A stretch of 35,139 bases of DNA from Gallionella sp. (GTDB taxonomy: Bacteria; Pseudomonadota; Gammaproteobacteria; Burkholderiales; Gallionellaceae): positions 1-35,139 of the forward strand of contig JAQTYN010000036.1 in NCBI GenBank assembly GCA_028688275.1, in the 5' to 3' direction. Below the pieces are notes generated by a model. That model ran no database searches and was not told the origin of the DNA. It saw nothing but the letters and a program-made list of their open reading frames with translations. The translations under genes and the position numbers were made by a program. Shown piece by piece: positions 11,035-25,350 of this stretch; within the stretch, counting starts at the first letter, position 1; every line of letters starts with the position of its first letter.

Positions 11035-12329
11035 TTTAGGTCACGTTCCGCCATGTCGAGATAATCACGTTGAGGTGCGCCCTGATAGAGCTGGCGGGGA
11101 CGACCAATTTTATGTTCGACATCGCTAATCATTTCATTCCATTGCGAAATCCAGCCTATGGTGCGCGCCACAGCAAAAATCACGGTAAACATATTGGTCG
11201 GAATCCCCAAGGCGCGCAACACAATACCCGAATAAAAATCGACGTTAGGATAGAGTTTACGCTCGATAAAGTAAGGGTCACTCAAGGCGATTTGTTCTAA
11301 TTCCATCGCCAGTTTGAATAATTTATCGTCCGCCAGCCCTAACTCGCTCAACACTTCATGGCAAGTTTCGCGCATCACCGCCGCGCGCGGATCCATGTTT
11401 TTGTAAACCCGATGACCAAAGCCCATCAGTCTATGTTTTTTGTCTTTCACGCCTTGTACAAAAGCGGCGACATTGGACACATCCCCAATTTCTTCCAGCA
11501 TTTTTAACGCAGCTTCATTCGCGCCACCATGTGCGGGCCCCCAAAGTGCCGCAATCCCCGATGCCACGCAAGCAAACGGATTCGCACCACTAGACCCCGC
11601 CAAGCGCACCGTGGAGGTCGAGGCATTTTGCTCATGGTCAGCGTGCAGGATAAAAATCCGTTCCAACGCCCGCGTCAAGACAGGATTCGGCACGTATTCT
11701 TCAGCAGGAGTGGCAAACATCATGTACATGAAATTTTCCACATAGCTGTATTTATTCTTAGGATGCATAAACGGGAAACCCGTGTGGTATTTATGCGCCA
11801 TCGCCGCAATGGTCGGCACTTTTGCCAACAAGCGTAACGCGGACAAATCACGGTGGGTCGGATTATTGATGTCCAAAGAATCATGGTAAAACGCGGACAA
11901 CGCACCCACCACCCCCACCATCACCGCCATTGGGTGGGCATCGCGGCGAAATCCTGTAAAGAATCGTGCCAACTGGTCATGCACCATGGTGTGCGAAGTG
12001 ACCTTGGTATGAAACTCCGCGCGCTGGGCAGCATTGGGCAATTCCCCATTGAGCAGCAAATAGCACACTTCCAAAAAGTCTGATTTCTCCGCCAATTGTT
12101 CAATCGGATAACCACGGTAATACAACAAACCCGCATCACCATCAATAAAAGTAATGGCAGAAATACAGCTGGCAGTGGAAAAGAAACCTAAATCGTAAGT
12201 AAAGACCCCCAGCTTGCTTAAAGTACGTATATCAATGACATCGGGGCCTAATGTCCCCTCGATCAGCGGCAACTCGATGCTGCGCCCATCGTCCAAGGTC
12301 AGTGTTGCGACACGTTTTTTATTTTCCAT
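11031..12329 (-). CDS. gltA: Type II citrate synthase
   Basis: Citrate synthase joins oxaloacetate and acetyl-CoA at the entry of the TCA cycle. The 432-residue product has the active-site histidines in [10 protein letters not shown] and [14 protein letters not shown] and the aspartate in NVDFYSG. Its length and the N-terminal beta-domain match the hexameric type II enzymes of proteobacteria, which are often NADH-inhibited. I set the start at ATG 12329 ([10 protein letters not shown]). The open frame extends 28 codons further, but that part lies inside sdhE and is not conserved in kind. The gene overlaps sdhE by 11 bases and sucA by four. Its place between sdhE and sucA is typical of betaproteobacteria and some relatives. 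Confidence 0.97.
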
Positions 12330-12591
12330 CCTCAAATTCCCCCATGTTGATGCGACAAGATGCCGCGCTGATTTTTTCCAACAAGACTTTTTGCGCCAAC
12401 GATTCTGCTTCACTGCGTCCCATAATTTGATCTAATAATGGGTTGTCTGGCATATCCAGTATCGCTTCAAATAGCTGTTTTTCATCAAGCGTTAATTGGG
12501 CGTAGTGCGCCGTGATAAAACGCTCAAAAATAATATCCAACTCCAACAAGCCTCGTCTGGCACGCCAACGCACCCGTTCCAAATGCTTCAT
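12319..12591 (-). CDS. sdhE: FAD assembly factor for succinate dehydrogenase
   Basis: This 90-residue protein belongs to the SdhE/YgfY/Sdh5 family, which promotes covalent flavin attachment to SdhA. The hallmark RGxxE motif is present in [10 protein letters not shown] near residue 10-20, followed by the helical segment [13 protein letters not shown] and the family pattern [10 protein letters not shown]. Its start codon overlaps the sdhB stop (ATGA) and its end overlaps gltA by 11 bases. Location directly behind its client enzyme agrees with the assignment. Confidence 0.93.
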
Positions 12592-13283
12592 ACCATGCGC
12601 TTGGTCATCAAATCTTTGATGTGACCAATCGCCTCCGTCGGATTAAGCTCTTTCGGACACACATCCGTACAATTCATAATCGTGTGGCAGCGGAATAAAC
12701 GATACGGGTCTTCCAGATCGTCCAAGCGCGCACTGGTTGCTTGATCGCGGGTATCGGCAATAAAGCGATAGGCTTGCAACAAGCCTGCGGGACCGACGAA
12801 TTTATCGGGATTCCACCAAAATGACGGACAGGCGGTGGTGCAGCAACCACACAAGATGCACTCATACAGTCCGTTCAGATGCTCCCGTTGCGCGGGCGAT
12901 TGTAACCGTTCCGTTTCAGGCGGGGGATCATTATTGATGAGATAAGGCTTGATGGAATGATATTGCTTAAAGAACTGGGTCATATCCACGATTAAATCCC
13001 GTATCACAGGCAAGCCTGGCAAAGGACGCAACTCAATGGGCGATTTCAACGTTGACAACGGCGTAATGCACGCCAAGCCATTGCGCCCATTGATATTCAT
13101 GGCATCCGAGCCACACACCCCTTCGCGACAGGATTTGCGTATCGACAAGCTATCATCTTGCTCTTTCAACAGCACCAGTGCGTCCAGCAACATCATATCG
13201 CCCGCCTCGACTGCCAGCTCGTAATCCTGCATATACGGCTTTGCGTCAGTGTCGGGGTTATAGCGGTAAATTCTAAATTTCAT
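12588..13283 (-). CDS. sdhB: Succinate dehydrogenase iron-sulfur subunit
   Basis: The electron-transfer subunit of complex II links SdhA to the membrane anchor. All three cluster motifs are visible: [2Fe-2S] CREGVCGSDAMNINGRNGLA plus the next Cys, [4Fe-4S] CILCGCCTTACP, and [3Fe-4S] CHTIMNCTDVCP. The length of 231 residues is close to the E. coli protein. I chose ATG 13283 (MKFRIYRYNPD) because AGGGA lies six bases before it. The open frame extends 42 codons upstream but that part overlaps sdhA and resembles nothing in the family. Fourteen bases separate it from sdhA. Confidence 0.97.
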   Translation of the reverse strand: MKFRIYRYNPDTDAKPYMQDYELAVEAGDMMLLDALVLLKEQDDSLSIRKSCREGVCGSDAMNINGRNGLACITPLSTLKSPIELRPLPGLPVIRDLIVDMTQFFKQYHSIKPYLINNDPPPETERLQSPAQREHLNGLYECILCGCCTTACPSFWWNPDKFVGPAGLLQAYRFIADTRDQATSARLDDLEDPYRLFRCHTIMNCTDVCPKELNPTEAIGHIKDLMTKRMV

Positions 13284-13297
13284 GGTGTGTCCCTGAC

Positions 13298-15058
13298 TTA
13301 ATACACCCGCGCTTTGAGCGGGAAGGAATCCACGGTCAGCGGTTTGAGCCGCACAGGCTTGTAATCCAAACGACGATCTTGGCTGAAATACAAGCTGTGT
13401 TTCAGCCAATTCACGTCATCACGATCAGGATAATCATCGCGCGCATGTGCGCCGCGACTTTCTTTCCGCGCTTCGGCGGCAATCATGGTGGCTTGCGCCA
13501 CTTCGATTAGATTATCCAACTCCAAGGCTTCGATACGCGCAGTGTTAAACACCCGACTTTTGTCTTGTATCACCGTTTGCGCCACGCGTTCGCTGATTTC
13601 CTTGATTTTGCTCACGCCTTCACTAAGCAAATCAGGGAAGCGGAACACCCCGCAATGTTTTTGCATGGTGCGGCGCATGGCTTCACCGACTTCCGACACG
13701 CGCTCACCCGATTTTTGGATTTCCAACCGAGCCAAACGCGACATCGACAAATCACCTGCATGGGCGGGTAAGGGTTTAGGATGCGGATGGCGTTGCAAAT
13801 CTTCGATAATTTGTCGCCCCGCCGCACGTCCAAACACAATCAAATCCAACAAGGAGTTGCAGCCTAAACGGTTCGCGCCATGCACCGAGACGCAAGCGCA
13901 TTCGCCCACGGCATACAGTCCTTGCACCACTTCTTCACCCGTGTGATATGGCACCACCACTTGTCCATGGTAGTTAGTCGGGATGCCACCCATCATGTAA
14001 TGCGCAGTGGGTACGACAGGAATCGCTTGTTTAGCAGGATCCACGTGAGCAAATTTCAGCGCGATTTCGCGTATCCCAGGCAAGCGTTGCTTAATCACAT
14101 CTTCGCCCAAATGATCTAATTTGAGCATCACATGATCGCCATGTTTGCCGCAGCCCCGCCCTTCGTTGATTTCAATGGTCATGGCACGTGACACCACATC
14201 ACGGCTGGCTAAATCTTGCGCATTCGGGGCGTATTTAGGCATAAAGCGTTCGCCGTCTTTATTCACCAAATAGCCGCCCTCCCCTCGCACCCCTTCGGTA
14301 ATCAACACCCCTGCGCCATACACGCCTGTGGGATGAAATTGGAAAAACTCCATATCTTCCAGCGGGATACCTGCTCGTGCCGCCATGCCTAAGCCGTCGC
14401 CCGTATTGATATAGGCATTGGTGCTAGATTGGAAAATACGCCCTGCCCCACCCGTGGCAAATAATGTCGCGCGCGCGTGGAAAATCATCACTTCGCCTGT
14501 TTCGATTTCCATCGCCGTCACGCCCAACACATCGCCCTCGGCATCGCGTATCAAATCCAACGCCATCCATTCAATAAAAAAATGGGTATTGGCTTTGACG
14601 TTTTGTTGATACAAAGTATGCAACAAGGCATGTCCCGTGCGATCCGCTGCGGCACAAGCCCGTTGCACAGGGATTTTGCCGTAATCTTGCATGTGTCCGC
14701 CAAAGGGACGCTGATAAATTTTGCCGCTGTCCAAACGGTCAAACGGCATACCGTAATGTTCCAGCTCATACACCACTTCGGGTGCTGCACGGCACATAAA
14801 CTCAATCGCATCTTGATCGCCCAGATAATCCGAGCCTTTCACGGTGTCATACATGTGCCAGTGCCAATTGTCTTCATTGACGTTGCCTAATGAGGCAGCA
14901 ATCCCACCTTGTGCTGCCACGGTATGCGAACGGGTTGGAAATACCTTGGACAATACGGCTACTTTTAATCCTGCCTCGGCTAATTGCAACGCGGCGCGCA
15001 TCCCTGCCCCGCCAGCACCCACCACCACCACATCAAACGTACGCTTTGCGACTGCCAT
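13298..15058 (-). CDS. sdhA: Succinate dehydrogenase flavoprotein subunit
   Basis: SdhA oxidises succinate to fumarate using covalently bound FAD. The 586-residue product starts at ATG 15058 with the dinucleotide-binding [21 protein letters not shown]. The flavin-linking histidine is in SHTVAAQGG, and the substrate-domain [21 protein letters not shown] and [15 protein letters not shown] are intact. The start overlaps the sdhD stop by one base (TAATG). The open frame continues upstream, but that part lies inside sdhD. Confidence 0.98.
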
Positions 15059-15405
15059 TACATTCCCCACAAAATTTGTACAGACCAGATGATATACAGC
15101 ACCAGTGCCAAAATCACCAGAGTATGAATCACCAAGCGAACGCTGGCGGGCTTCACATAATCCATCACGATGTCGCGCACACCTATCCAAGCGTGATAAA
15201 ACAAACTCAATAAAAACAACAAACTAAATGTTTTAACCGCTTGCCCCGCAAAAAGTTGATGCCATGCGGCGTAATCAGCGGGCGACTGCCACAACACATA
15301 ACCCACACCCAGCACCACATAAACCGCCATTACCACTGCCGTAATGCGCTGCACCAGCCAATCGCGCAAACCATAATGCGCACCAACCACCACCCGATCT
15401 ACCAT
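15058..15405 (-). CDS. sdhD: Succinate dehydrogenase membrane anchor subunit D
   Basis: This 115-residue hydrophobic protein has three membrane helices and anchors complex II at the quinone site. The segment [18 protein letters not shown] matches the SdhD haem/quinone region, with the histidine that ligates haem b. The N-terminus with [15 protein letters not shown] is also typical. It overlaps sdhC by seven bases and sdhA by one. Confidence 0.95.
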
Positions 15406-15785
15406 AATTTCACCCCCACAATGACAGTCAACAATAGGCTGACCCCCATGACGATTTTGCTGCTGCTGCGCGCTTGTGCCAAATTGCGCACCATGTGTAA
15501 ATCAATTGCCAAATAACGCAGTCCTGCACAGAAGTGATGCAATAAAGCCCATGTAAACCCTAATATCAACAACTTGACTAAAGGATGCGCCAACACGGTA
15601 CTCAGTTGCGTATAAGTTTCTGACGACTGCAAACTCGCTTGCAACATATACAAAAACAAGGGGAGTGCTAAAAACAATGCTACGCCACTGACACGATGGA
15701 GGATGGAAACAATACCTGGAAGAGGAAGCCTAATAAGATGTAAAGCGAGATGTTTAGGGCGTTGCTGATGGGGGGTAAAGCGCAT
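15399..15785 (-). CDS. sdhC: Succinate dehydrogenase cytochrome b556 subunit
   Basis: The first gene of the operon encodes a 128-residue, three-helix anchor subunit. PLPGIVSILHRVSGVALFL is the conserved SdhC quinone-site block (the Ser and Arg near SILHR), and LLHHFCAGLRYLAIDLH holds the haem histidine. I chose ATG 15785 (MRFTPHQQRPKHL) because it has AAGAGAG upstream and gives the usual length. Open frames beginning at upstream codons would add up to 40 unlike residues. Confidence 0.95.
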   Translation of the reverse strand: MRFTPHQQRPKHLALHLIRLPLPGIVSILHRVSGVALFLALPLFLYMLQASLQSSETYTQLSTVLAHPLVKLLILGFTWALLHHFCAGLRYLAIDLHMVRNLAQARSSSKIVMGVSLLLTVIVGVKLW

Positions 15786-15816
15786 AATTGGCTCTCTTGG
15801 CGGTGAACTAGTGTGC

Positions 15817-15845
15817 ATATTACTCGCTCTATACCGTCGATTCAA
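15817..15845 (-). promoter_or_regulatory. Candidate sigma-70 promoter for the sdh-gltA-suc operon
   Basis: On the minus strand TTGAAT (15845-15840) and TAATAT (15822-15817) are separated by exactly 17 bases, each matching four of six consensus positions. Transcription would begin near 15810, giving a 5' leader of about 25 bases before sdhC. This is a sequence match only. Confidence 0.4.
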
Positions 15846-15950
15846 ACTAAGCTCGCGGTACACGAAACGAATTAAAGATGCATTTCCGATATAATGACAT
15901 CCCAATAGAACGAACCGTCTGTTTTTAGAGCAGAATCACTCAAAGTCAAA

Positions 15951-15979
15951 ATGACGAAAATCGTTACGAAACGTATAAT
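15951..15979 (+). promoter_or_regulatory. Candidate sigma-70 promoter for the GTPase/Roadblock locus
   Basis: ATGACG (15951-15956) and a perfect TATAAT (15974-15979) are 17 bases apart. Two small palindromes overlap it: GTCAAAATGAC (15945-15955) over the -35 box and TACGAAACGTA (15965-15975) reaching the -10 box. They could bind a regulator. The predicted leader is about 95 bases. It is divergent from, and some 100 bases away from, the putative sdh promoter. Confidence 0.5.
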
Positions 15980-16047
15980 GCCTCACCTACTGTAATGACA
16001 TACGGGAACAATCAAGTAATATGCTTGTCCAACCAGAGAGGTAACTT

Positions 16048-16068
16048 ATGTACCACCTAAATACCTAA
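16048..16068 (+). CDS. Possible six-codon leader ORF (MYHLNT)
   Basis: ATG 16048 follows an excellent ribosome-binding site (AGAGAGG, about six bases upstream) and reads M-Y-H-L-N-T-stop, ending 14 bases before the next gene. Its ribosome site is better than that of the real downstream gene, so it might tune translation. It is very short and could be chance. Confidence 0.25.
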   Translation: MYHLNT

Positions 16069-16082
16069 CTAATGAGGGCGAT

Positions 16083-16733
16083 ATGACAGCCGATATGATT
16101 GACCAAACCATGGGGATAGAAATCCCGCCTTTTAGACCATCAGACCACTTATTAGGTATCGTGCAAGGCATTATAGCTTCGCGTGTCAATTCACGAATCG
16201 TACTGGCAGGACAGGGGGAAATCATAGTATTGCCTCAAGCGGGAAGTTATTACACCAATGCTCAAAATATGGCACGATTTTGTCAAGCCCCTGCAGCGCG
16301 ATTTGAAACATCCCCTTTAGGTAACAGTGCACTCTCCTACCCGATTGAATCAGCAAGAAATATCAAAGAACTGTTGTGGCAAGCCGCATTTCACGTCTCT
16401 CAAGGTCGTTTACCTGAAGGCTGCACAAAATATGATGTTGTCAAATTCCGCCACTGGCCTAATCTCACTCGCTTACCGATCACTCCAAATACAGCTCAAA
16501 TTTGTTCACTTTTGACGCGCACCCCTACCACCATTATGCTTGTCAGACGTATTCTTGAGCTGCCCAGAGAAGAAGTCTATCAAATTTACAGTGCGGCATA
16601 TTGTGCTGGCCTTACCTCAAAAGTCCAAAATACACCCGAACAGGCCCAGGCAGAAACTGCAATGACTAACGCGCCACCTCCTGCTACACAGGGTTTGATG
16701 CGCTCTTTGTTTGCTAAAATTTTAGGATTGTAA
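16083..16733 (+). CDS. Conserved-looking protein with probable C-terminal winged helix, GTPase-linked
   Basis: I cannot assign a named function. The 216-residue protein is soluble with no signal peptide. The N-terminal half (about 15-125) alternates strands and helices. The segment KFRHWPNLTRLPITPNTAQI followed by two helices (about 115-180) resembles a winged-helix domain, in position comparable to the DUF742-type partner in actinobacterial GTPase conservons; this comparison is inference. The tail (about 180-205) is rich in Ala, Pro and Gln. Start ATG 16083 has GAGGG five bases upstream. Only three bases separate it from the GTPase gene, so the two are co-transcribed and their products probably act together. 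It is the first gene of the plus-strand locus. Confidence 0.75.
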   Translation: MTADMIDQTMGIEIPPFRPSDHLLGIVQGIIASRVNSRIVLAGQGEIIVLPQAGSYYTNAQNMARFCQAPAARFETSPLGNSALSYPIESARNIKELLWQAAFHVSQGRLPEGCTKYDVVKFRHWPNLTRLPITPNTAQICSLLTRTPTTIMLVRRILELPREEVYQIYSAAYCAGLTSKVQNTPEQAQAETAMTNAPPPATQGLMRSLFAKILGL

Positions 16734-16736
16734 AAC

Positions 16737-17291
16737 ATGGAAAATAAAATCATTTTTGCAGGTCCTGTCGGTTCAGGTAAAACAACCTCAATTAGCGCAG
16801 TCAGCGACATTATGGTGGTTGGCACAGAGGCCAAAGCGACTGATGATGTTGCCAAGCGCAAGCAAAATACGACCGTTGCGATGGATTACGGTGTACTTAA
16901 TCTTGAAGGCGGAAAACGTGTTCATCTTTATGGCACGCCTGGTCAGGAACGCTTCAACTTTATGTGGGAAATTCTAAGCGAAAATGCTATTGGATTCATT
17001 ATCCTCATTGACAGTATCAGACCCGACCCGATGGCCGACCTTGATTTTTATGTAAAAGCCTTCCGTAAATCCATTACGCAATGTAAAAATGCTGTCGTGA
17101 TAGGCGTAACACGGACTGAAGTATCTGGGCAAGTTGATTTGCTCGATAAAATCAATAGTCACCTCGCGACACTTAATCTTAACGTTCCCGTATTTGAAGT
17201 CGATGGACGAGAAAGAAAAGATGTCAAACAAATGCTACTCGCCTTGCTTACCTTGATAGACCCAAAAACCATGCGACTCAAGGCCGCATAA
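16737..17291 (+). CDS. Small Ras-like GTPase, COG2229/CvnD (MglA-like) type
   Basis: This 184-residue single-domain GTPase has the P-loop GPVGSGKTT (9-17), a switch I threonine pair near 45-46, and the G3 region YGTPGQERFNFMW (65-78). The glycine in place of the usual DxxG aspartate, and the TPGQxRFxFMW pattern, are typical of the COG2229 family that includes Streptomyces CvnD and is related to MglA. The guanine-specificity motif is TRTE (126-129) rather than NKxD, which may alter nucleotide affinity. No membrane anchor or lipid signal is visible. These GTPases are generally controlled by Roadblock proteins, two of which are encoded downstream. It sits three bases after the winged-helix gene. 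Confidence 0.88.
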   Translation: MENKIIFAGPVGSGKTTSISAVSDIMVVGTEAKATDDVAKRKQNTTVAMDYGVLNLEGGKRVHLYGTPGQERFNFMWEILSENAIGFIILIDSIRPDPMADLDFYVKAFRKSITQCKNAVVIGVTRTEVSGQVDLLDKINSHLATLNLNVPVFEVDGRERKDVKQMLLALLTLIDPKTMRLKAA

Positions 17292-17300
17292 GATTTCCCC

Positions 17301-17319
17301 CTCCCAGCACGGGAGTTTT
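17301..17319 (+). terminator. Short hairpin with T-run after the GTPase gene
   Basis: CTCCC (17301-17305) and GGGAG (17311-17315) form a five-pair GC-rich stem with a five-base loop, followed by TTTT. It begins ten bases after the GTPase stop. It could be a weak terminator or attenuator that lowers expression of the ABC-phosphatase gene relative to the GTPase. Confidence 0.4.
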
Positions 17320-17352
17320 AGTCAGTATGATGTTTTGCTTCGGGTACAGACG

Positions 17353-18786
17353 ATGAAATTTTCACAAACGCCAACACCATCACAATCCACCCACTTTACG
17401 CAAAACATCCACGCTCATCCTAAATCAGCACCTCCAACAGCAGGAATGGTGTTGGAGTTGCGAAATTTTGGAGCTGCTTTTGGTCAGAAAGTGGTGTTGG
17501 GCGAAATTTCGCTTGGCATTCCAGAACAAGGTGCTGTTGTCTTGCTTGGCCCTTCTGGAACTGGGAAGTCAACTTTGCTGCGTACGTTGGCAGGCATGAG
17601 CTCTGCCAGTCCTTCATTTCGTACTTGGGGTGAGGCGTTCTACAACGGTGAAATACTCAGTGACCATGAACGTCCTGAACTGGTTGCACAGAGCACGAAA
17701 CTAATGATGTCATCAGTGTTAGACAACGTGGTGGTTAACCTATTTGAACGTAGCCAACTTACCCGCGCTCAGCAGCGTGAATTAGCGCACCGTCTATTGA
17801 AATATGCAGGACTGGAGGAGCTATGTTCTAGAATGGACGATCTGGTGGTCAGCTTGCCACTGGCATTGCAACGTCATCTTGCCATCCTACGTCAAGTGGT
17901 CTCTCGCCCACGTTTGCTTTGTATCGACGAACCTACCACAGGATTAAACGATGAAGAAAGTCTCCGTTTATTAACCTATATTCGAGATGAGGCAACACGC
18001 CGCGCTCTATTGGTCACTTTGCACAATCAACAACATGCGCGTTTTCTGGGCGGGATGGGCGTTTTACTGGCGGGCGGGTATATACAAGAGCAGCAAGAGA
18101 TTCCAGCCCTATTTGACTCTCCAATTTCTCACGCCGCACGGGAATTTGCGCGAACGGGTTCCTGTGCTGTGGCCAGCCCTGGCACACCAATAGAGGAGTT
18201 AGATGACTCACTGCCCCCGCCTAAACCTCTCCCCAAAGCGGCTATGCATCACGCCAGTAGCGCATCAGGCCCAAGAGGTTTTTTGTGGCTAAAGCGCAAT
18301 CAACTGGCTGGCACGCCCAAACCAGGTGTGTTTTTTGAAAAGGAATATGACCTCAAAGCACTGCAACGCGTTGGGGTGACGACGCTGATTACACTACTGG
18401 AAGAGCACTTAGACGAAGAACGTCTCAAACCCTTTGGCCTCAGAAGTATTTGGGAACCCATTAAGGACATGCACGCACCTACCATTGAACAGGGTATTCG
18501 GATCTGCGAAACAATCGAACATCTGATAGCCGATCACGAAGTCATTGCAGTCCATTGTCTTGCTGGCATGGGGCGCACGGGGACAATTTTAGCTGCCTAT
18601 TTAATATGGGAAGGACAGAGTGCCTTAGACGCGCTTGAAACAGCACGCAGCATTGAGCCCCGTTGGGTGCAGTCGCAAGCGCAAGTATCGTTTTTAACAG
18701 CATTTGAGCTAGCTTTGCAAAAAATTCACGACAATAATGAGCAGGGCACCGCTATAATACAAGCGCAGTCCCCGTCTGGCACTTAA
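17353..18786 (+). CDS. ABC-type ATPase fused to a dual-specificity protein phosphatase
   Basis: The 477-residue protein has a low-complexity N-terminus (about 1-30), an ABC nucleotide-binding domain (about 32-260) and a Cys-based phosphatase domain (about 310-460). Walker A is GPSGTGKST (66-74) and Walker B is LLCIDEPTTGL; the switch His is in VTLHNQQ. The ABC signature is degenerate: the LSGGQ position reads SLPLALQRH. The phosphatase loop HCLAGMGRTG has nucleophile Cys402 and Arg408, and an upstream Asp in PIKDMHAP could be the general acid. No permease gene is nearby, so transport is unlikely and a signalling role is inferred. The start is uncertain: ATG 17353 lacks a good ribosome site, an in-frame TTG lies at 17335, and ATG 17446 starts exactly at the ABC domain. 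Confidence 0.85.
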   Translation: MKFSQTPTPSQSTHFTQNIHAHPKSAPPTAGMVLELRNFGAAFGQKVVLGEISLGIPEQGAVVLLGPSGTGKSTLLRTLAGMSSASPSFRTWGEAFYNGEILSDHERPELVAQSTKLMMSSVLDNVVVNLFERSQLTRAQQRELAHRLLKYAGLEELCSRMDDLVVSLPLALQRHLAILRQVVSRPRLLCIDEPTTGLNDEESLRLLTYIRDEATRRALLVTLHNQQHARFLGGMGVLLAGGYIQEQQEIPALFDSPISHAAREFARTGSCAVASPGTPIEELDDSLPPPKPLPKAAMHHASSASGPRGFLWLKRNQLAGTPKPGVFFEKEYDLKALQRVGVTTLITLLEEHLDEERLKPFGLRSIWEPIKDMHAPTIEQGIRICETIEHLIADHEVIAVHCLAGMGRTGTILAAYLIWEGQSALDALETARSIEPRWVQSQAQVSFLTAFELALQKIHDNNEQGTAIIQAQSPSGT

Positions 18787-18829
18787 AGCAAGACACTTTT
18801 ATCAACTATACAATATCGGGAGTTCTTAT

Positions 18830-19231
18830 ATGTCTTTAGATCAAGCATTGCAAACAGCTGCATCCAATGTTCCAGAATGTTTGGCTGCTGGCTACATCGA
18901 TTTAGCATCAGGAATGTTGTTAGGCATCAAATCAGTTGACTCCCAACCGAGTGAAGTGATTGATTTACTGGCCGCTGCTACATCCGATCTGTTCCAAGGT
19001 CCTAACGTGCGCATGATTGAAAGCATTTTCAAAAAAGCACGTGGTTTGACTGATGATGGTCATCATTATTTCCAAGAAATTATTATCAACAGCGACAACT
19101 TACTGCACGTTTTTCTGCGTGGAAAAAATGAAGAACAAGTCGCTTGCTTCGTTTGCCGTCGCTCGGTGAACTTGGGCATGGCATTAACAAAAGCACGCTC
19201 TTCAATGCCTGCTATCGAGGCTGCTCTGTAA
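18830..19231 (+). CDS. Roadblock/LC7-like small protein, first copy
   Basis: This 133-residue protein has the size and alternating helix-strand order of the Roadblock/LC7 fold (AGYIDLASGMLLGIKS as the first hairpin, FQEIIINSDNLLHVFLRG as the later strands, and a C-terminal helix). The sequence is more divergent than the second copy downstream, so the assignment is fold-level. Roadblock proteins bind small GTPases as activators, exchange factors or scaffolds, which fits the GTPase gene upstream. The ribosome site GGGAG lies eight bases before the ATG. Forty-three bases separate it from the ABC-phosphatase gene, and a hairpin follows it. Confidence 0.65.
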   Translation: MSLDQALQTAASNVPECLAAGYIDLASGMLLGIKSVDSQPSEVIDLLAAATSDLFQGPNVRMIESIFKKARGLTDDGHHYFQEIIINSDNLLHVFLRGKNEEQVACFVCRRSVNLGMALTKARSSMPAIEAAL

Positions 19232-19277
19232 TACAAATGCTGACGACGAGCTTATTGCTCGCTATCCGCTAAAACAT

Positions 19278-19307
19278 GGTCAGGCACGAGTTTACGAGTG
19301 TCTGACC
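19278..19307 (+). terminator. Hairpin after the first Roadblock gene
   Basis: GGTCAGGCAC (19278-19287) pairs with GTGTCTGACC (19298-19307), ten pairs including one G-T, with a ten-base loop. It is followed by GTTTGCTTTC. It plausibly ends transcripts of the first four genes. The T-run is interrupted, so the strength is uncertain. Confidence 0.45.
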
Positions 19308-19385
19308 GTTTGCTTTCAAGTACGCTAGCATCATCAAAAACACAGTATCTATAGCAGTTTTACAATCCCGTGTTTTTGACCATGC

Positions 19386-19416
19386 TTGGCATGACAGGTT
19401 AAATTTTGTTTATATT
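19386..19416 (+). promoter_or_regulatory. Possible promoter for the second Roadblock/globin-reductase pair
   Basis: TTGGCA (19386-19391) and TATATT (19411-19416) have a 19-base spacer, longer than ideal. A 10-bp inverted repeat, TCAAAAACAC (19334-19343) with GTGTTTTTGA (19370-19379), lies upstream and could be an operator. With the preceding hairpin, it suggests that the last two genes form their own transcription unit. Confidence 0.28.
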
Positions 19417-19440
19417 TTTCTGAAATAGGTGACTCGCAAC

Positions 19441-19857
19441 ATGAGACAAGAACCCAAATCCGTTACCGAAGTCCGTGCCTCAGCCCTTAGGTCCGTCCTG
19501 CGTGAACTTAATAACTCTTCTGGTGATATTGAAGCATCTGCTTGTATTTCAAGCGATGGCTACACCCTTGCATCAGTACTGGGTTCTGGTGTGGACGCAG
19601 ATCGTTTTGGTGCAATGTGCGCTTCACTACTCGCTTTAGCCAGTCGTGCTGCACAAGAAATTCAACGCGGCGAACTCAAATTGGTTATGGTTGAAGGCGA
19701 ACTCGGTGTGATGTTATTGGTGCATGCAGGACCTGATGCGATTTTGGCCGTTGCCGCTAAACCAGGCAAGAACTTGGGCATGATTTTCTTGGACTCCAAA
19801 AAGACCGCTGTTAAGCTGTTGCAAACCTTGGATCGTCATGAGCCATTGGTCGGCTAA
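19441..19857 (+). CDS. Roadblock/LC7 domain protein, second copy
   Basis: This 138-residue protein is a clear single-domain Roadblock/LC7 protein. A first helix VRASALRSVLRELNNSSGDI is followed by the hallmark ACISSDGYTLASVL hairpin, a long helix, and the strands LKLVMVEGELGVMLLVHAGP and AILAVAAKPGKNLGMIFLD. The related MglB acts on MglA in Myxococcus, and CvnB accompanies CvnD in Streptomyces. Here the likely partner is the GTPase at 16737-17291. I chose ATG 19441, with AGGTGA eight bases upstream, over the in-frame GTG at 19429. The gene lies 21 bases before the ferredoxin-globin fusion, so the two are probably made together. Confidence 0.88.
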   Translation: MRQEPKSVTEVRASALRSVLRELNNSSGDIEASACISSDGYTLASVLGSGVDADRFGAMCASLLALASRAAQEIQRGELKLVMVEGELGVMLLVHAGPDAILAVAAKPGKNLGMIFLDSKKTAVKLLQTLDRHEPLVG

Positions 19858-19878
19858 CACTCAACCAGAGCGCGACAG

Positions 19879-21444
19879 ATGCCTTATTTAAAGTATCAGG
19901 GTAAGGAAGTCTTTGCCCGTAAAGACGAGAATGTCCTTGATGCCATGTTGCGCAGCGGAGTAGACGTACCGTTTTCATGCCGCAGCGGTGTCTGCCACAT
20001 TTGCGTACAGCGTTGCCTTAAAGGCGAAATTCCCCCATTGGCACAATCTGGATTGCGTCCTGAATTGCGTGAACAAGGCTATTTTATGACTTGCAAATGC
20101 GTTCCGTTGACGGATATGGAAATCATTCCACCCAGCGATCTTTTTACGACCACGTTGGTACACAGTAAAGAGCTGCTAACACCCAAAATCTGTAAATTAC
20201 TCATTGAGCCGCCCCAAGATTTCACCTATCGTGCTGGGCAATACATTAACGTGCGCAATCCCAAAGGCGCAGTGCGCAGTTATTCGTTAGCCAGTTTACC
20301 AGCCACAGATTACTTTCTCGAACTCCACATTCAGTTCACAGCAAATGGCGAAATGAGTCCGTGGATATTTGATACCCTTAGTTCAGGGGATGAAATTGAA
20401 ATTCAACACGCCGAGGGCCAATGCTGTTATCAAACCAAAATACAGACGCAACCCATGCTGCTCATTGGCACGGGAACGGGTCTATCCCCGCTACTTGGCG
20501 TGATACGAGATGCTTTGCATCAACAACATCAAGGTGAAATCCATCTTTATCATGGTAGCCGTACCTTAGATCATTTGTATTTACACAACGATCTACACCA
20601 ACTTGAGCAGCAACACCCCAATTTTCATTATCACCCCTGCCTATCAGGCAGCGAACCCCCTCCCGAAGGCATGAATGCGGGAAGAGCCGATGTCATCGCC
20701 TTCGCCAAACATCAAAACTTACATGATTGGCAGGTTTATTTGGCTGGACTCGCCGAAATGGTTGAGAAAGCTCAGTTGATCGCACTAGAGCATGGTGCTG
20801 CATTATCATCCATACACACGGACGCGTTTTCTATTCCCACAGCAACGCCATCCGATAAGCCCGTACAGCCCTCCACGCGCGACTATCCTCCACCTGATCC
20901 TGTGCTTTGGAAGGCATTAGGCGAAGGGGAACTTCTGATGGCGGTGCTGCGTGATTTTTATGGCCGAGTGTTTCAGGACCCTCGTTTATCATCCTTTTTT
21001 GAAGGCGTCACCAAGCAACGCTCCATTGAAAAGCAATATCTCTTTACGCGCCAAATTTTAACGGGTGAAAAAATTTACTTTGGGGAACGCCCCCGCAATT
21101 CACATCACTGGATGGTGATTTCGGATGAGCTGTTTGATTATCGCGCAGAAATCATGGTGAGCTGTTTACGTGAGCATGGATTAGCTGAAGATATGGTGCA
21201 CCGATTCCGCGAAGTAGAAGAATTCTTTAGGGCCGCGATTGTTAAATCCACCCCTTTTGCGCGAGTGATGGGGGATGTAGAAGTGCCATTTGAGGGTTTT
21301 GGTGAAATCACATTGGATGTTGGCACTTTATGCGATGTGTGTGAACGCGAAGTTTCTATTGGCGAAAAGGTGATCTACCATCTGCGCTTAGGCAAAATAT
21401 ACTGCTCTGATTGCAGCTCACAACACCATCACGACATCTCCTAA
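19879..21444 (+). CDS. [2Fe-2S] ferredoxin-flavoreductase-truncated globin fusion with CxxC tail
   Basis: The 521-residue soluble protein has four parts. A plant-type ferredoxin (1-90) uses Cys34, Cys39, Cys42 and Cys72. An FAD/NAD(P)H reductase (about 95-310) shows RSYSLAS for flavin and GTGTGLSPLLG for pyridine nucleotide, but the usual CGP near its end is replaced by AGLAEM. A Pro-rich linker leads to a truncated-haemoglobin domain (about 345-460) with FYGRVFQDPRLSSFF and a candidate proximal His in NSHHWMVISDELF. The tail has two Cys pairs (CDVC and CSDC) that could bind zinc, and ends in HHH. Classic flavohaemoglobins have globin first and no ferredoxin, so this order is different. It may reduce O2 or NO, or sense them; that is inference. 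Confidence 0.88.
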   Translation: MPYLKYQGKEVFARKDENVLDAMLRSGVDVPFSCRSGVCHICVQRCLKGEIPPLAQSGLRPELREQGYFMTCKCVPLTDMEIIPPSDLFTTTLVHSKELLTPKICKLLIEPPQDFTYRAGQYINVRNPKGAVRSYSLASLPATDYFLELHIQFTANGEMSPWIFDTLSSGDEIEIQHAEGQCCYQTKIQTQPMLLIGTGTGLSPLLGVIRDALHQQHQGEIHLYHGSRTLDHLYLHNDLHQLEQQHPNFHYHPCLSGSEPPPEGMNAGRADVIAFAKHQNLHDWQVYLAGLAEMVEKAQLIALEHGAALSSIHTDAFSIPTATPSDKPVQPSTRDYPPPDPVLWKALGEGELLMAVLRDFYGRVFQDPRLSSFFEGVTKQRSIEKQYLFTRQILTGEKIYFGERPRNSHHWMVISDELFDYRAEIMVSCLREHGLAEDMVHRFREVEEFFRAAIVKSTPFARVMGDVEVPFEGFGEITLDVGTLCDVCEREVSIGEKVIYHLRLGKIYCSDCSSQHHHDIS

Positions 21445-21449
21445 AGCTC

Positions 21450-21473
21450 CCCTCGCCCGTTTACGGGAGAGGG
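21450..21473. terminator. GC-rich hairpin between convergent genes
   Basis: CCCTCGCCCG (21450-21459) and CGGGAGAGGG (21464-21473) form a ten-position stem with one mismatch and a TTTA loop. It sits between the convergent globin-fusion and patatin genes and could serve both. No T-run follows, and similar GC-rich hairpins occur as dispersed repeats. Confidence 0.4.
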
Positions 21474-21487
21474 CACGCGTAGGTAAA

Positions 21488-24370
21488 TTAAGACACAAAC
21501 CCCGTCCATTTATGACTACGTGGGCTTGAGGTTTTATCTATGCCCGCTAAAACCTCGCCCATCAAAAAGTAGCCCAATTTGCGATAGCTTTCAAATTGCG
21601 CTTCATCAAAGAACTGATCTGTGGTGGACTGATGTGGGAAACACGCATTCTTTGACGCATAGTTCAATATGTCTTCAGGAATATGCCCCATTAAGCTGGG
21701 TTTGATGTAGAGCAACAGCCCTATCAATTCATCAGCATTCGCGGGGTTGTGTTTAGGATAATGCACGTCACCCAGTGCCCAGCAGCATTCGCTGTAGCCT
21801 GTCTTGGGATCCAATCGCAAAGCATCTAAATCAATATCAATGCGCACGCCAAAATCGGTGTAGCACTTGCGGCTGAGGCTGGCAAAGTCTTCAAAGATAC
21901 GTTTATCATCTTCCGCCGCATCGACCACCATAATCAAGCGGCAACGACGACGTACCAGTTCATATACTCCTAAGTTTTCAAAATGCCCGCCATCGCTGAG
22001 ATATACGAAATTATCTGTGTCATTGCTCATGACAAACAATTCTTTGAATAAGTACCATGCGCCCATGGAAGGGCTGTCTCTTCTGAGCACGCGTTCATTG
22101 ATAGATTTAGGATTGGGACACCAATGTCCTAAGCGCACATTAAACACTGTCAGCATAAAAGCGGTCACGGGAGAGGTGTGGTAACCCATGTTGGGACTTG
22201 CCGCCGCACCTGACGCAGCCATCGCCGTCCCTAACTTCACCCCACCCATGTAGGTATGGCTATAGCAATAACCACCTCGTTCACGTTTTTGACATTCTTC
22301 CTCTTTGCCATATTGATATGAATATCCACAAGCAATGGGCGAAAAAGTAAACGAAGCAGCTTTGCGATCTTGCCAAGCCAACTCATTTTGCTGTGATAGG
22401 TTAATCGTGGTATTGAGCAAATGCAGCGGACGCTGCACCATGGTATGCAGTTTAATATCGTCACAAGGATCAAAACCTGTGAATGGATGGGCATCGCGTT
22501 CATGACTGGCATAACGGCTGGCACCCAAATAACAACGCGCCAAGCGGTTACGATAAAAATAATGGATGGAAAATAAATTTACATCTAATCGCCAAGCCAA
22601 CACCAAAAACCCTAGGCCTGCCGCCAATAGCATGTAAAACAACTCGATGATGGAAGCTTGATTTTTTGCTTTGATGGTTTGATTCAGCCGTTCTTGAAAT
22701 GTGGGGACACTCGCCTGCTTGGGACGCATCACCCTACTATGACCGTGTCGTAGTAGGGTAGGCGTGTATTGTGTGGCTTCCACCACCTCAGCATGTCGTT
22801 GAAACACCAAACGATGGGTCGCAACGGACATCATGGAAATCATCCCCAATACCAGTAAATAAGGCGCGGCAATCACGAATAATTCTTTCCAACCCTTATT
22901 GCCCTTTGCCCCCGTGCTTGAGCCATTCGCAAACAATAAACCTGTGACGGTTGGAACTAGCCAAGTAATCCCACCCACCGTCACATATTCAGTTTTCAAT
23001 ACATCAAACAAGGGCGGCGCATAAACCAGCAAAACATGTACGGATGCCCAACCAGCAGCCACGACCAACACCACACCGCCTAAACGCGCCCACCATTCAA
23101 ACTGGCTGATGCGGAACATGCGAGCCATCAACCCTTGATGCAACACCAAGGTCATACAAAAAATGACCAACATCAATGGCGTTCCAAACCCCGCCGCCCA
23201 CCAATCTCGTCCTGTGGCGGGCAAGTTGCCTATATAGCTTGCCAGCGTATAAACCAACGCGCCGCCCACCACACCAGAAATCATCGGTGACAGCCATACT
23301 GCTAGCCCTGCATGCCACGTGGCATGTCTCTGCTCACAGGGAGTATGTTGAAATACTCTTTTAATCATGCGGTTGAACAACGTCGCAATCCACCAAGGAA
23401 CGGTATAAAGCATGGCAATGTATAAAGTCCAATCTGCCATTGGGACTAACTTTTTGGGTAAACCCAATACATTCCATTGTGCAAAATGGGGTAAGAACGA
23501 GAGAATTTGCGATGTGTAATGGTACAAACCTAAGCTCAGCGCATAACAACTGATCACGGCAACACTAACCACATACAGTGGGATTTTGATGCGAATATCG
23601 GGTAGCGTTTTGGGTAAATCCAGTGCAGAAATGAAAATCGCCGAAGTCATGCAAAACAAACCAATCAAGGTTAAGTTCTGGGTAATGACCGCACTCATGG
23701 GATAAACGGGCTGTGTGAGCAACAGAAAAGTCCATTGCGGCAACAACAGTGCTAAAAAGAAAAACAGAAACAACAACACTTGATTTAGCACGGTATTGCG
23801 CATCCAATAAGCTATGGTTGCGACAAAATCCCCCGAAAACCCCATCTTAGGCGACAAGTAATTACTATAACGCCGCAACCACGCCACCACCACAGGCTCA
23901 TTGCCTCTTTCATGCGATGTGTGCCAATTCCGTTCTAACTGCAATACGCCTGATGCAGGATCAAACGCAGCCGCTTGAGGCCGATCCGCTTGATTTTTGA
24001 ACAACTGTTTTATGCGTGCACCCGTGGAATGGGTGTCGGGCTGAGGATCTTTTTCTTGCTTAAGCCAAGGCTTACGATGCACCAAACTAGAAAACCACGA
24101 ACCAATGTAGCCGCCGCCCGACACAGTAGAAAGATAGTCGAATGAATCGAGCAAGCGTTGTTCCGCTAGTTTTTGCAATACGCCCAAGCAAAACGTCGCG
24201 CTCCGTATACCACCGCCCGAAAATGCCAATCCCTGCAAATTCGCCTGCCATGCACGGGTCTGCGCATCTATCTCACGTGAAGTCGGCGGGACTTTTTTCT
24301 CCCGCTCAATCGCATCTAACTCGTCATGTAAAACATCCGAGAAGTTCATGGGCTTATCGTTGGGTTGCAT
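21488..24370 (-). CDS. Patatin-like phospholipase with an internal multi-pass membrane region
   Basis: The 960-residue protein is a lipid acyl hydrolase of the patatin type. Near the N-terminus are the oxyanion-hole motif SGGGIRS (51-57) and the nucleophile elbow STVSGGGYIG with Ser84. The catalytic Asp is far away, in DGGHFENLG (Asp793). Between them lie about nine or ten hydrophobic segments (roughly 190-620), so the catalytic domain is split by a membrane domain. The hydrolase is probably held on the inner-membrane cytosolic face. No substrate can be named; phospholipids are likely. ATG 24370 has AAGGAG seven bases upstream. It converges on the globin-fusion gene, with only a hairpin between. 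Confidence 0.88.
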   Translation of the reverse strand: MQPNDKPMNFSDVLHDELDAIEREKKVPPTSREIDAQTRAWQANLQGLAFSGGGIRSATFCLGVLQKLAEQRLLDSFDYLSTVSGGGYIGSWFSSLVHRKPWLKQEKDPQPDTHSTGARIKQLFKNQADRPQAAAFDPASGVLQLERNWHTSHERGNEPVVVAWLRRYSNYLSPKMGFSGDFVATIAYWMRNTVLNQVLLFLFFFLALLLPQWTFLLLTQPVYPMSAVITQNLTLIGLFCMTSAIFISALDLPKTLPDIRIKIPLYVVSVAVISCYALSLGLYHYTSQILSFLPHFAQWNVLGLPKKLVPMADWTLYIAMLYTVPWWIATLFNRMIKRVFQHTPCEQRHATWHAGLAVWLSPMISGVVGGALVYTLASYIGNLPATGRDWWAAGFGTPLMLVIFCMTLVLHQGLMARMFRISQFEWWARLGGVVLVVAAGWASVHVLLVYAPPLFDVLKTEYVTVGGITWLVPTVTGLLFANGSSTGAKGNKGWKELFVIAAPYLLVLGMISMMSVATHRLVFQRHAEVVEATQYTPTLLRHGHSRVMRPKQASVPTFQERLNQTIKAKNQASIIELFYMLLAAGLGFLVLAWRLDVNLFSIHYFYRNRLARCYLGASRYASHERDAHPFTGFDPCDDIKLHTMVQRPLHLLNTTINLSQQNELAWQDRKAASFTFSPIACGYSYQYGKEEECQKRERGGYCYSHTYMGGVKLGTAMAASGAAASPNMGYHTSPVTAFMLTVFNVRLGHWCPNPKSINERVLRRDSPSMGAWYLFKELFVMSNDTDNFVYLSDGGHFENLGVYELVRRRCRLIMVVDAAEDDKRIFEDFASLSRKCYTDFGVRIDIDLDALRLDPKTGYSECCWALGDVHYPKHNPANADELIGLLLYIKPSLMGHIPEDILNYASKNACFPHQSTTDQFFDEAQFESYRKLGYFLMGEVLAGIDKTSSPRSHKWTGFVS

Positions 24371-24440
24371 TTTGAGCTCCTTAATTCAATCAGCCATAAA
24401 ATCAAGTTTTCAAGCGACATTCAGCTGTCGGGCTGTAGGG

Positions 24441-24464
24441 GGATAAGCGTAGCGTAGCGCATCC
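24441..24464. repeat. REP-like palindromic repeat
   Basis: GGAT (24441-24444) and ATCC (24461-24464) bracket a repeated AAGCGTAGCGTAGCGC core. It resembles the dispersed GGATAAGCGCAGCGCATCC-type repeats of many gammaproteobacteria. It lies upstream of the patatin gene. Confidence 0.4.
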
Positions 24465-24489
24465 ATATTTTTTACAATCTTTCTGCTAA

Positions 24490-24598: not shown

Positions 24599-25258
24599 CT
24601 AAGACAAAGCATCAAGAGCCAGCCGTTCAACTTCGTCGATCATTGACTCGACATCTGAACGCTGAAACTCCGCAGTTTTACCGTGAGCCGCACTGTTTCT
24701 AATTGCGGCCAGTGCAGTAACTCGCTTTTGAACGAGTGCGTTGTATTGCCCCGCTTTTGCAAGGTCAGAATTCATTTTATCGAGCTTTCCATGACAGATA
24801 GAGTGATTGTCACAGAGTGTTCGCAGTGTATTTTCCAAAACAACTCCAGTTACTACCGCAGCAGCCGAGATATATCCAGACTGAAGAAGCTCTCGGGCTT
24901 GATCTAGCTCTGACTCCGCAAGCTCTGCTTGAACGAGATTGCGAACAGACACAAGATAGCCACCTTCAAAATCTTCACGCGCTGCAAGAAAGACTGCTTT
25001 GACTCGCTTAAATATTTCATAGTTATCACCGTAGGGCGTGGGTTTCTCTCCGTCTACAAATGACACATAGTGTTCTGATTCTTTTCCACACGCATTTGAA
25101 ATTAAGCTTCTTGCCTTTACACACCAGTTTAGGAACATATCAGGATCTACCTCTTGGTATTGTCCGAAGTGCTCGCTGTTTTTAAGCTGCAGTGTGCGCT
25201 CAACCTTTTCAAGTTGTAAATCAAGCTCTGCGAATCGTCTCTTCAGGACTTTAATCAT
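24599..25258 (-). CDS. DUF4145/HEPN-like protein
   Basis: The protein has about 219 residues with no signal peptide or membrane segment. The N-terminus (1-25) is a charged helix, and the C-terminal half has the helical DUF4145-type pattern with SGYISAAAVVTGVVLENTLR and AIRNSAAHG near residue 195. The RNxxxH part of that motif is the HEPN signature, whose Arg and His form the RNase active site in toxin and anti-phage proteins. It may be a nuclease or a degenerate HEPN domain. I prefer ATG 25258 over TTG 25273. The stop TAG lies in the duplicated CTAA next to the MITE. No antitoxin-like small gene is adjacent. Confidence 0.7.
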   Translation of the reverse strand: MIKVLKRRFAELDLQLEKVERTLQLKNSEHFGQYQEVDPDMFLNWCVKARSLISNACGKESEHYVSFVDGEKPTPYGDNYEIFKRVKAVFLAAREDFEGGYLVSVRNLVQAELAESELDQARELLQSGYISAAAVVTGVVLENTLRTLCDNHSICHGKLDKMNSDLAKAGQYNALVQKRVTALAAIRNSAAHGKTAEFQRSDVESMIDEVERLALDALS

Positions 25259-25278
25259 GTGCAATCGTTCCAAAAAAG

Positions 25279-25350
25279 GTACAACGCCGCGCTCTGCGGA
25301 AATTTAGGAGCGCATGCGAGTAAATTTTCCGTAGCAGCGCCTTGTTATGC
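25279..25350 (-). other. attC recombination site of an integron-type gene cassette
   Basis: Read on the minus strand the site starts with R'' GCATAAC (25350-25344) and ends with GTTGTAC (25285-25279). The arms between them (GGCGCTGCTACGGAAAATTT and AAATTTCCGCAGAGCGC) pair imperfectly with extra bases, as attC hairpins do. R'' is the exact complement of GTTATGC at the 5' end of the cassette (26151-26145), as expected if both come from one circular cassette. The HEPN gene stop codon TAA lies inside R''. No integrase gene is in the window. Confidence 0.75.

Follow-up and report, generated by a model that had tools for sequence, protein, structure and literature searches.

The stretch of DNA analysed here, called the window below, is an entire contig of 35,139 nucleotides (JAQTYN010000036.1, our C43) from the genome of a Gallionella sp. 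(assembly GCA_028688275.1), which comprises 3.16 Mb in 112 contigs. Six genes were confirmed at positions 16083-21444, all on the plus strand and with the coordinates given in a preliminary description of this DNA. They represent a variant, conserved and patchy in its distribution, of the Group 3 MglA GTPase/Roadblock module of beta- and gammaproteobacteria. The features are as follows.

16083..16733, plus strand: g1, 216 amino acids, a short form of the Group 3 MglA-associated regulator with the WPNLTRLP C-terminal region.
16737..17291, plus strand: g2, a Group 3 MglA-type small GTPase with G3 motif GTPGQ, G4 motif TRTE and G5 motif DGR.
17335..18786, plus strand: g3, an ATP-binding cassette (ABC) ATPase fused to a dual-specificity/tyrosine phosphatase (HCLAGMGRTG), called the ABC-phosphatase.
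18830..19231, plus strand: g4 (rb1), a protein of predicted Roadblock fold without a Pfam match, partner gene of g3.
19429..19857, plus strand: g5 (rb2), a Roadblock/LC7 protein, MglB-like, with a conserved Asp-Gly pair.
19879..21444, plus strand: g6, a 2Fe-2S ferredoxin, FAD/NAD reductase and truncated globin with a C-terminal four-Cys part (zinc-ribbon-like).
20872..21441, plus strand: the globin-zinc part of g6, the portion common to the 18 loci carrying g6.

The intergenic gaps from g1 to g6 are 3, 43, 43, 197 and 21 bases, and since they are so tight the six genes are likely to be read as one or two transcripts.

The sequence of the GTPase g2 fits the description of Group 3 MglA. In the Pfam and NCBIfam searches it matched ATP_bind_1 (4e-13), with Ras, Roc and TIGR00231 under their cut-offs, and within its own genome it matched nothing but itself at E <= 0.001. 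The G3 motif reads GTPGQ (LYGTPGQERF in the window), the G4 motif TRTE has no Lys and carries Glu in the Asp position, and the G5 motif is DGR, not DAR. The features of Group 1 MglA, TVPGQ and an Arg next to the G2 Thr, are missing, the corresponding stretches being GTPGQ and NTTVAMDYG. In the published account of Group 3 MglA, as far as the available text goes, Lys is often absent from G4 and G5 is of the DAR type (PMC4316618). The match, the GTPGQ motif and the Group 3 features together bear out the CvnD/MglA-like GTPase announced in the preliminary description. The G4 acid was Glu in 14 of the 23 readable GTPases from ABC-phosphatase loci and in 5 of 83 readable others, in a regex-based count on 25 distinct sequences (2 unreadable) and 101 distinct others (18 unreadable), with kinship not removed and seven of the 14 Glu cases coming from one tight group.

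The upstream protein g1 was without a match in Pfam, searched up to E 1, and in NCBIfam, searched up to 0.1. It aligned with the C-terminal half of longer proteins encoded upstream of the same GTPase, with the WPNLTRLP region kept, and in the alignment with these longer Group 3 upstream proteins it has no N-terminal receiver-like domain. Such proteins have been predicted to consist of a receiver-like N-terminus and a winged-helix C-terminus, according to the accessible part of the same account (PMC4316618). The model of g1 (mean predicted local distance difference test, pLDDT, 81) had no match in PDB at E <= 0.001, the best being 0.08, and winged helices were among the weak matches. A winged helix in g1, proposed in the preliminary description, is thus weakly supported by the model, and the alignment of its C-terminal region with the predicted winged-helix proteins of Group 3 speaks in its favour.

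For g3, the fusion of an ABC ATPase and a phosphatase was confirmed by Pfam matches to ABC_tran (5e-15) and to the PTP/DSP families (Tc-R-P 1.5e-21, DSPc 2e-9); its translation may actually begin at the ATG at 17353. Motifs were compared in an alignment of 24 of the 28 ABC-phosphatase loci, the omitted ones being L063, L089, L092 and L098. At L063 the frame is split over two open reading frames (ORFs; L063:9558-10953), by a frameshift of either the gene or the assembly. All 24 aligned homologues retained the Walker A Lys, the Q-loop Gln, the Walker B Asp-Glu and the H-loop His, as well as the phosphatase loop HCxxGxxRTG with its general-acid Asp (24/24), and in none of them was the exact LSGGQ signature present. 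The closest PDB relatives of the phosphatase half were small dual-specificity phosphatases, and those of the ABC half were PstB and the nucleotide-binding domains of amino-acid importers. Because the phosphatase and ATP-binding motifs are kept and the exact LSGGQ is missing, g3 is probably a catalytically active phosphatase joined to an ATP-binding module, and not a transporter. Two other candidates were rejected. An ABC transporter ATPase was discarded on the missing exact signature (0/24) and on the lack of a membrane partner, as ORFs and Pfam gave no membrane protein among the six window genes. A defence system was discarded since the PADLOC matches were weak or partial and limited to the ABC part of g3 (best 2e-10), with none for the other five genes.

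Both Roadblock-like proteins of the preliminary description were recovered, on different grounds. The Roadblock nature of rb2 is evident from Pfam (Robl_LC7, 2e-14); it is the only match to this family (PF03259) in the host genome, and its Asp-Gly pair, D43-G44, was invariant in 16 of 16 aligned rows. The protein rb1 has no such pair, and to sequence comparison its Roadblock nature is invisible: it has no Pfam match, a profile-profile comparison of rb1 with rb2 was not significant, and the rb1 profile retrieved no Roadblock among PDB sequences. Its AlphaFold2 model (mean pLDDT 87) had Roadblock/MglB structures as best Foldseek matches (E 2e-7, template modelling score about 0.7), and it is because of this predicted fold, not of sequence profiles, that rb1 is labelled a Roadblock protein. 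In a search of viral structures the same model found nothing at E <= 0.001. The conservation of rb1 is striking: in a comparison with 13 relatives its identities are 65-83%, against 45-76% between g2 and the GTPases of the same relatives.

The ferredoxin-reductase-globin protein of the preliminary description is likewise present, g6 having Pfam matches to Fer2, FAD_binding_6, NAD_binding_1 and Bac_globin (residues 343-452). In an alignment of the globin-zinc part, which included 14 of the 18 loci, the invariant residues, in alignment numbering, were Tyr30 of an FY motif, which we take to be the distal Tyr, His78-His79 of HHWMVI, presumably supplying the proximal His, and Cys154, Cys157, Cys178 and Cys181; judging from these cysteines, the four-Cys part would bind zinc. 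Flavohaemoglobin Hmp consists of an N-terminal globin followed by an FAD/NAD reductase in one chain. In g6 a globin and an FAD/NAD reductase likewise share one chain, but their order is reversed, the globin is of the Bac_globin type, and 2Fe-2S and four-Cys parts are added. The reductase was complete by Pfam in the window and in L168; for ten other loci its completeness was judged from length and profile score. A ferredoxin without a recognised reductase was found in L084 and L136, L137 has the same length and layout, and in L069, L070 and L169 the globin-zinc part occurs without any front half. A complete reductase is thus lacking in 6 of the 18 loci while the globin-zinc part persists, so the shared core is the globin plus the zinc ribbon, a pattern that would fit a sensor role of g6.

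The grouping of these genes is more than chance, since they are found together repeatedly in beta- and gammaproteobacteria. The rb1 profile was searched in a draw of 369 genomes from the class (23 with a match, 8 with E < 1e-50, window included) and in a draw of 399 genomes from the order (7 with a match at E 1e-8, 6 of them strong), which added four genomes. There were 12 distinct strong-rb1 genomes, two of which, the window and G762 (same contig as L076), had supplied rows to the rb1 profile. In all 12 the ABC-phosphatase adjoins rb1 on the same strand, at a distance of at most 687 bases, and with the two profile contributors excluded the figure is 10 of 10. Matches to the ABC half only, which occurred somewhere in 200 of 200 genomes, were generic ABC-ATPases and were dropped; those also covering the phosphatase half were kept, in at least five genomes (G000, G058, G093, G133 and G163). 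A GTPase lies near the pair in 9 of the 12 genomes (that of G163 scoring only 90 bits), an rb2-like gene was present in 8 (two of them weak, 35 and 52 bits) and g1 in 7. The globin-zinc part was near rb1 in 5 of the 12, and a sixth, G348, has a globin-zinc reductase on another contig. Since the ABC-phosphatase and rb1 are adjacent in all 12 genomes, three of them without an adjacent GTPase, this pair looks like the core of the locus. The phosphatase that the preliminary description saw as an addition to a GTPase system is indeed there, in the ABC-ATPase fusion, which is linked most closely to rb1, not to the GTPase.

The full-length globin-zinc part (at least 199 bits) was found in 5 of the 369 class genomes, each from a different family and all among the 8 with strong rb1, and the profile search did not find it in any of the other 361. 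The hypergeometric probability of such an overlap is near 1e-9; with the window and G762 left out it becomes 2e-6. The remaining 68 of the 73 genomes with globin matches scored at most 89 bits and were counted as ordinary truncated globins; these low matches mostly stop before the cysteines, and a few run through stop codons. Among the 28 ABC-phosphatase loci the globin-zinc part was present in 18 and undecidable, at contig ends, in 3. The search of genome contigs with the GTPase, in which 80 of 98 relatives were kept, gave 17 loci with an ABC-phosphatase and 63 showing none (some contigs being short). On independent occurrence of the genes, a point raised in the preliminary description, the outcome was therefore mixed: the ABC-phosphatase is linked to rb1 throughout and all five globin-zinc carriers fall among the strong-rb1 genomes, but the GTPase, found near the pair in most of these genomes, also occurs at many loci that show no ABC-phosphatase.

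A quick tree of 120 GTPase sequences (181 columns, 25 ABC-phosphatase rows) placed g2 among Neisseria and other beta- and gammaproteobacterial relatives. On this tree, which has several long rows and modest support, the ABC-phosphatase label needed 4 changes against a shuffled mean of 23, and the result is compatible with a single origin of the association. The divergences of the GTPase, the ABC-phosphatase and rb2 correlated pairwise at 0.73-0.82 (Spearman 0.82 over 66 pairs for GTPase and rb2, 0.79 for GTPase and ABC-phosphatase), values that keep shared species history in and are as expected for co-inheritance.

The comparisons with known systems below follow the accessible text of the papers cited. 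Published Group 3 MglA modules consist of a receiver/winged-helix protein, MglA and one or two MglB proteins (Wuichet and Sogaard-Andersen 2014, PMC4316618). The window shares with them GTPGQ, a G4 motif without Lys, an MglB-like Roadblock protein with the Asp-Gly pair, an upstream protein whose C-terminal region aligns with the predicted winged-helix proteins, and the 1:2 arrangement of GTPase and Roadblock proteins (PMC4316618). It differs in that the receiver part is absent, the ABC-ATPase/phosphatase is inserted, a globin/zinc/reductase protein is added and the second Roadblock protein, rb1, is a distinct, strongly conserved family. New relative to the published Group 3 would thus be the fusion beside a dedicated Roadblock protein and the truncated-globin/zinc-ribbon protein, which is often fused to a reductase. 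No Group 3 MglA locus with a globin protein, or with an ABC-ATPase fused to a phosphatase, was found described among the literature matches listed, which comprised titles and the beginnings of abstracts, preprints and many subscription papers lying outside the coverage. With the actinobacterial conservon CvnA-D, a Group 2 MglA system (PMC4316618, PMC13343842), the locus shares a compact operon of GTPase, Roadblock and small extra protein with variable accessory sensors. However, by Pfam no CvnA-type histidine kinase is encoded among the six genes, the neighbours are sdhC-like and patatin-like, and g1, in the place of the extra small protein, has no Pfam match. The analogy to conservons and to MglA/MglB drawn in the preliminary description accordingly stands for a GTPase with Roadblock partners, but the system belongs with those of Group 3 in beta- and gammaproteobacteria. 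In Snodgrassella, too, mglB genes are coupled to a mglA of Group 3, and the genome has an orphan mglB as well; the available text on this Mgl locus makes no mention of an ABC-phosphatase or a globin (PMC11112851). In HGbRL of Methylacidiphilum a haem globin is likewise wired to a Roadblock domain, with an MglA-like GTPase elsewhere in the genome, but that globin is a different one and is fused to the Roadblock, while the globin of the window is a truncated one and, together with its zinc ribbon and reductase, makes up a protein of its own (PMC4476040).

The genes, their domains, the intact catalytic motifs and the linkage across families are established, and the fold of rb1 is predicted; upon them we would place the following scheme, in which we infer every contact, ligand, phosphatase target and the order of events. 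The locus would encode a Group 3 MglA-type signalling module of the cytoplasm that has haem on its input side and a phosphatase as its output. The C-terminal truncated globin of g6 would bind haem and a diatomic ligand (O2 or nitric oxide, NO), or would sense the redox state, and the NADH-FAD-2Fe-2S part would keep its haem iron reduced. The zinc ribbon of g6 would then dock on a complex of Roadblock protein and ABC-phosphatase, in which an rb1 dimer would hold or gate the ABC ATPase and thereby set the activity of the fused phosphatase, the nucleotide-binding domain with its degenerate signature binding ATP and closing as a switch instead of driving transport. The MglA-type GTPase, with rb2 as GTPase-activating protein or co-regulator, would set when or where the complex is active. 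As the last element g1 would act as a GTPase-linked adaptor or a transcriptional output, and because its receiver domain is absent it would here take no receiver-type phosphorylation input. This scheme, in which a haem/redox sensor acts on an ABC-phosphatase gated by a Roadblock protein and governed by a GTPase switch, seems to us, as a whole, evenly poised between right and wrong, and any single ligand is less probable than that. The O2- or redox-responsive GTPase switch suggested in the preliminary description is likewise something we infer. Group 3 MglA systems occur in many beta- and gammaproteobacteria including Neisseria, and in the literature examined, as far as its text was accessible, their input and output are not established. 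The variant in the window has a plausible input, the haem/redox protein, and a plausible enzymatic output, the phosphatase, beside the switch, so six proteins could serve to reconstitute the chain in vitro. The variant further suggests a degenerate-signature ABC-ATPase as a regulator of a phosphatase and a Roadblock protein as its partner.

The scheme draws on the linkage and the intact catalytic motifs set out above, on the persistence of the globin-zinc part where the reductase is incomplete or missing, on the BLUF light-sensor gene of locus L184, which has no globin, on the other phosphatases at Group 3 loci with a divergent rb1, on the joint divergence of GTPase and rb2, and on the globin-Roadblock fusion HGbRL (PMC4476040). 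Several observations weigh against it. Firstly, the linkage has gaps. G093, G133 and G287, 3 of the 12 strong-rb1 genomes, have no GTPase adjacent to the pair, their GTPase relatives lying elsewhere with 27-48% identity. The globin-zinc part is missing from the fetched stretch in 7 of the 28 ABC-phosphatase loci, and therefore the core can do without the globin sensor; the BLUF light-sensor gene was seen at a single locus. Secondly, the counts are not fully independent of the searches. Of the 28 loci, 17 were found via the GTPase and the window was given, so that their GTPase linkage is by construction; the globin profile includes rows from four of the five globin-zinc genomes, G348 alone feeding neither profile, although such a contribution aids sensitivity in those genomes and creates no absences elsewhere. 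Thirdly, the correlation of rb1 with ABC-phosphatase divergence is weak, 0.34 (0.23-0.42 over all pairs with rb1), perhaps owing to the high conservation of rb1. Finally, the ABC-phosphatases of L069 and L070 keep a near-signature, LSLGQ, and loss of ABC function is thus not uniform, and there is no kinase among the six genes.

Among other explanations, a module controlling cell polarity or type IV pili in the manner of Myxococcus MglA/MglB, with phosphatase and globin tuning motility, appears to us rather unlikely. The orphan MglB of Snodgrassella, whose genome has a Group 3 mglA, is linked to type IV pilus-dependent motility in the accessible text of that report (PMC11112851). The host genome here has nine T2SSE-family ATPases over the cut-off, but these ATPases are near universal (14 of 14 control genomes match, 13 over the cut-off) and little informative, no pilus or motility gene is found among the six, and the GTPase is without the two Group 1 features. 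It is unlikely, to a somewhat greater degree, that g6 is an enzyme, such as an NO dioxygenase or a protein of other oxygen/NO chemistry, which became a neighbour through a shared stress need and is not a sensor. The domains for NADH-driven haem reduction are present in g6, and the host is a Gallionella relative, iron oxidisers such as Gallionella living at oxic-anoxic boundaries. Yet the reductase is missing or incomplete in a third of the loci (6/18) in which the globin-zinc part persists, the domain order is opposite to that of flavohaemoglobin, and in the class draw the search for the globin-zinc form found none in the 361 genomes that lack strong rb1. A nitrate reductase-truncated globin hybrid which, according to the available text, may convert NO (PMC9837059) stands on the enzyme side. 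That the GTPase/rb2/g1 switch and the ABC-phosphatase/rb1 unit are two independent neighbours is very doubtful, for although the pair occurs without an adjacent GTPase in 3 of 12 rb1 genomes and the 63 of 80 GTPase loci (some on short contigs) show no ABC-phosphatase, the GTPase, ABC-phosphatase and rb1 lie close together on one strand in 9 of the 12 rb1-found genomes, from different families, GTPase divergence tracks that of the ABC-phosphatase (0.79), and the GTPases of such loci cluster on the tree (4 label changes, shuffled mean 23).

Relatives of rb1 have metallophosphatases or PP2C as neighbours, and those of Ruegeria have dynamins and a protein kinase; the combination of an rb1-type Roadblock protein, a P-loop NTPase and a phosphatase or kinase is a recurring theme. 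We tentatively propose, at something short of even confidence, that rb1 founds a class of Roadblock proteins acting where P-loop NTPases meet reversible protein phosphorylation. In the locus rb1 would clamp a soluble ABC-ATPase-phosphatase, with a haem sensor and a Ras-like GTPase jointly gating dephosphorylation, so that O2, NO or redox state would act through the G-protein and ABC switch on the phosphatase. Divergent rb1 genes were found in 16 of the 369 class genomes searched, mostly in ordinary Group 3 loci, and G921 has both kinds. A GTPase lies near them in 12 of the 16 genomes, and a relative of a 533-amino-acid protein ending in a metallophosphoesterase in 10, with PP2C in one more, the metallophosphoesterase being Pfam-checked in two of the 10 and in L134, and two of the six misses being examined over about 1.5 kb.

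A number of related loci were recorded. At L174:3262-5061 a PP2C gene lies directly upstream of two rb1-like genes, and no GTPase was found in that stretch. In the plasmid record search, relatives of rb1 occurred in five records, all from Ruegeria, and in the two inspected (L252:1901-12399 and L253) the rb1-like gene lies among four dynamin-family genes with a protein kinase gene downstream; g3 was unmatched at E 1e-20 among 72,556 plasmid records. At L186:6938-12050 the two Roadblock genes of a Group 3 MglA locus stand with genes for a metallophosphoesterase protein and for a tandem globin protein (Globin and Bac_globin), an independent pairing of the same functions. The BLUF light-sensor gene mentioned above belongs to the ABC-phosphatase locus at L184:5289-10193, which has no globin and whose GTPase has a long N-terminal extension. 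Some ABC-phosphatase loci also include a CxxCxxCC metal-binding protein, an optional member that the window does not have. In Neisseria and many other relatives a different protein, with a weak Roadblock match, is encoded between the GTPase and rb2 (222 amino acids in L065, 216 in L074). Related genes lie near two ABC-phosphatase loci (L064:13571-14209 and L121:14489-15127), and the one in L064 codes for a protein with a glyoxalase domain and, at the C-terminus, a DUF2621 part.

The locus is flanked by a divergent sdhC-like gene on one side and a convergent patatin-like gene on the other, the sdh names of the flanking genes being our assignment from their sequences. The nearest named relative is a Gallionella metagenome-assembled genome, whose GTPase is 95% identical to g2 and which shares three collinear blocks, 88-93% identical in DNA, with window positions 7741-24474. 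None of the six genes was found in 11 congener stretches beside the sdh genes (about 4 to 11 kb beyond sdhC, with sdhCDA present), and rb1 was found in 0 of the 6 congeners, other than the genome of the window, listed in the 399-genome order search; the locus is therefore patchy in distribution, having been acquired or repeatedly lost. A check for mobile elements gave no tRNA or Rfam match anywhere in the window. The promoter and terminator scans of the window were near chance (11 found against 8.8 expected, and 10 against 6.7). Between the stop of the GTPase and the start of the ABC-phosphatase, a terminator-like hairpin at 17301-17315 (CTCCCAGCACGGGAG followed by TTTT) could serve as a transcription attenuator, at this near-chance level of the scan overall. 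An inverted repeat at about 19278-19307, inside the 197-base gap between rb1 and rb2, was spotted by eye. Downstream, positions 21488-24370 encode a protein of 960 amino acids with a patatin-like N-terminal match, a region that adjoins the locus in the Gallionella relative too. Further on, the protein encoded at 25345-26112, with a sub-threshold HEPN (RiboL-PSP) match, adjoins a DUF4145 protein (24599-25273).

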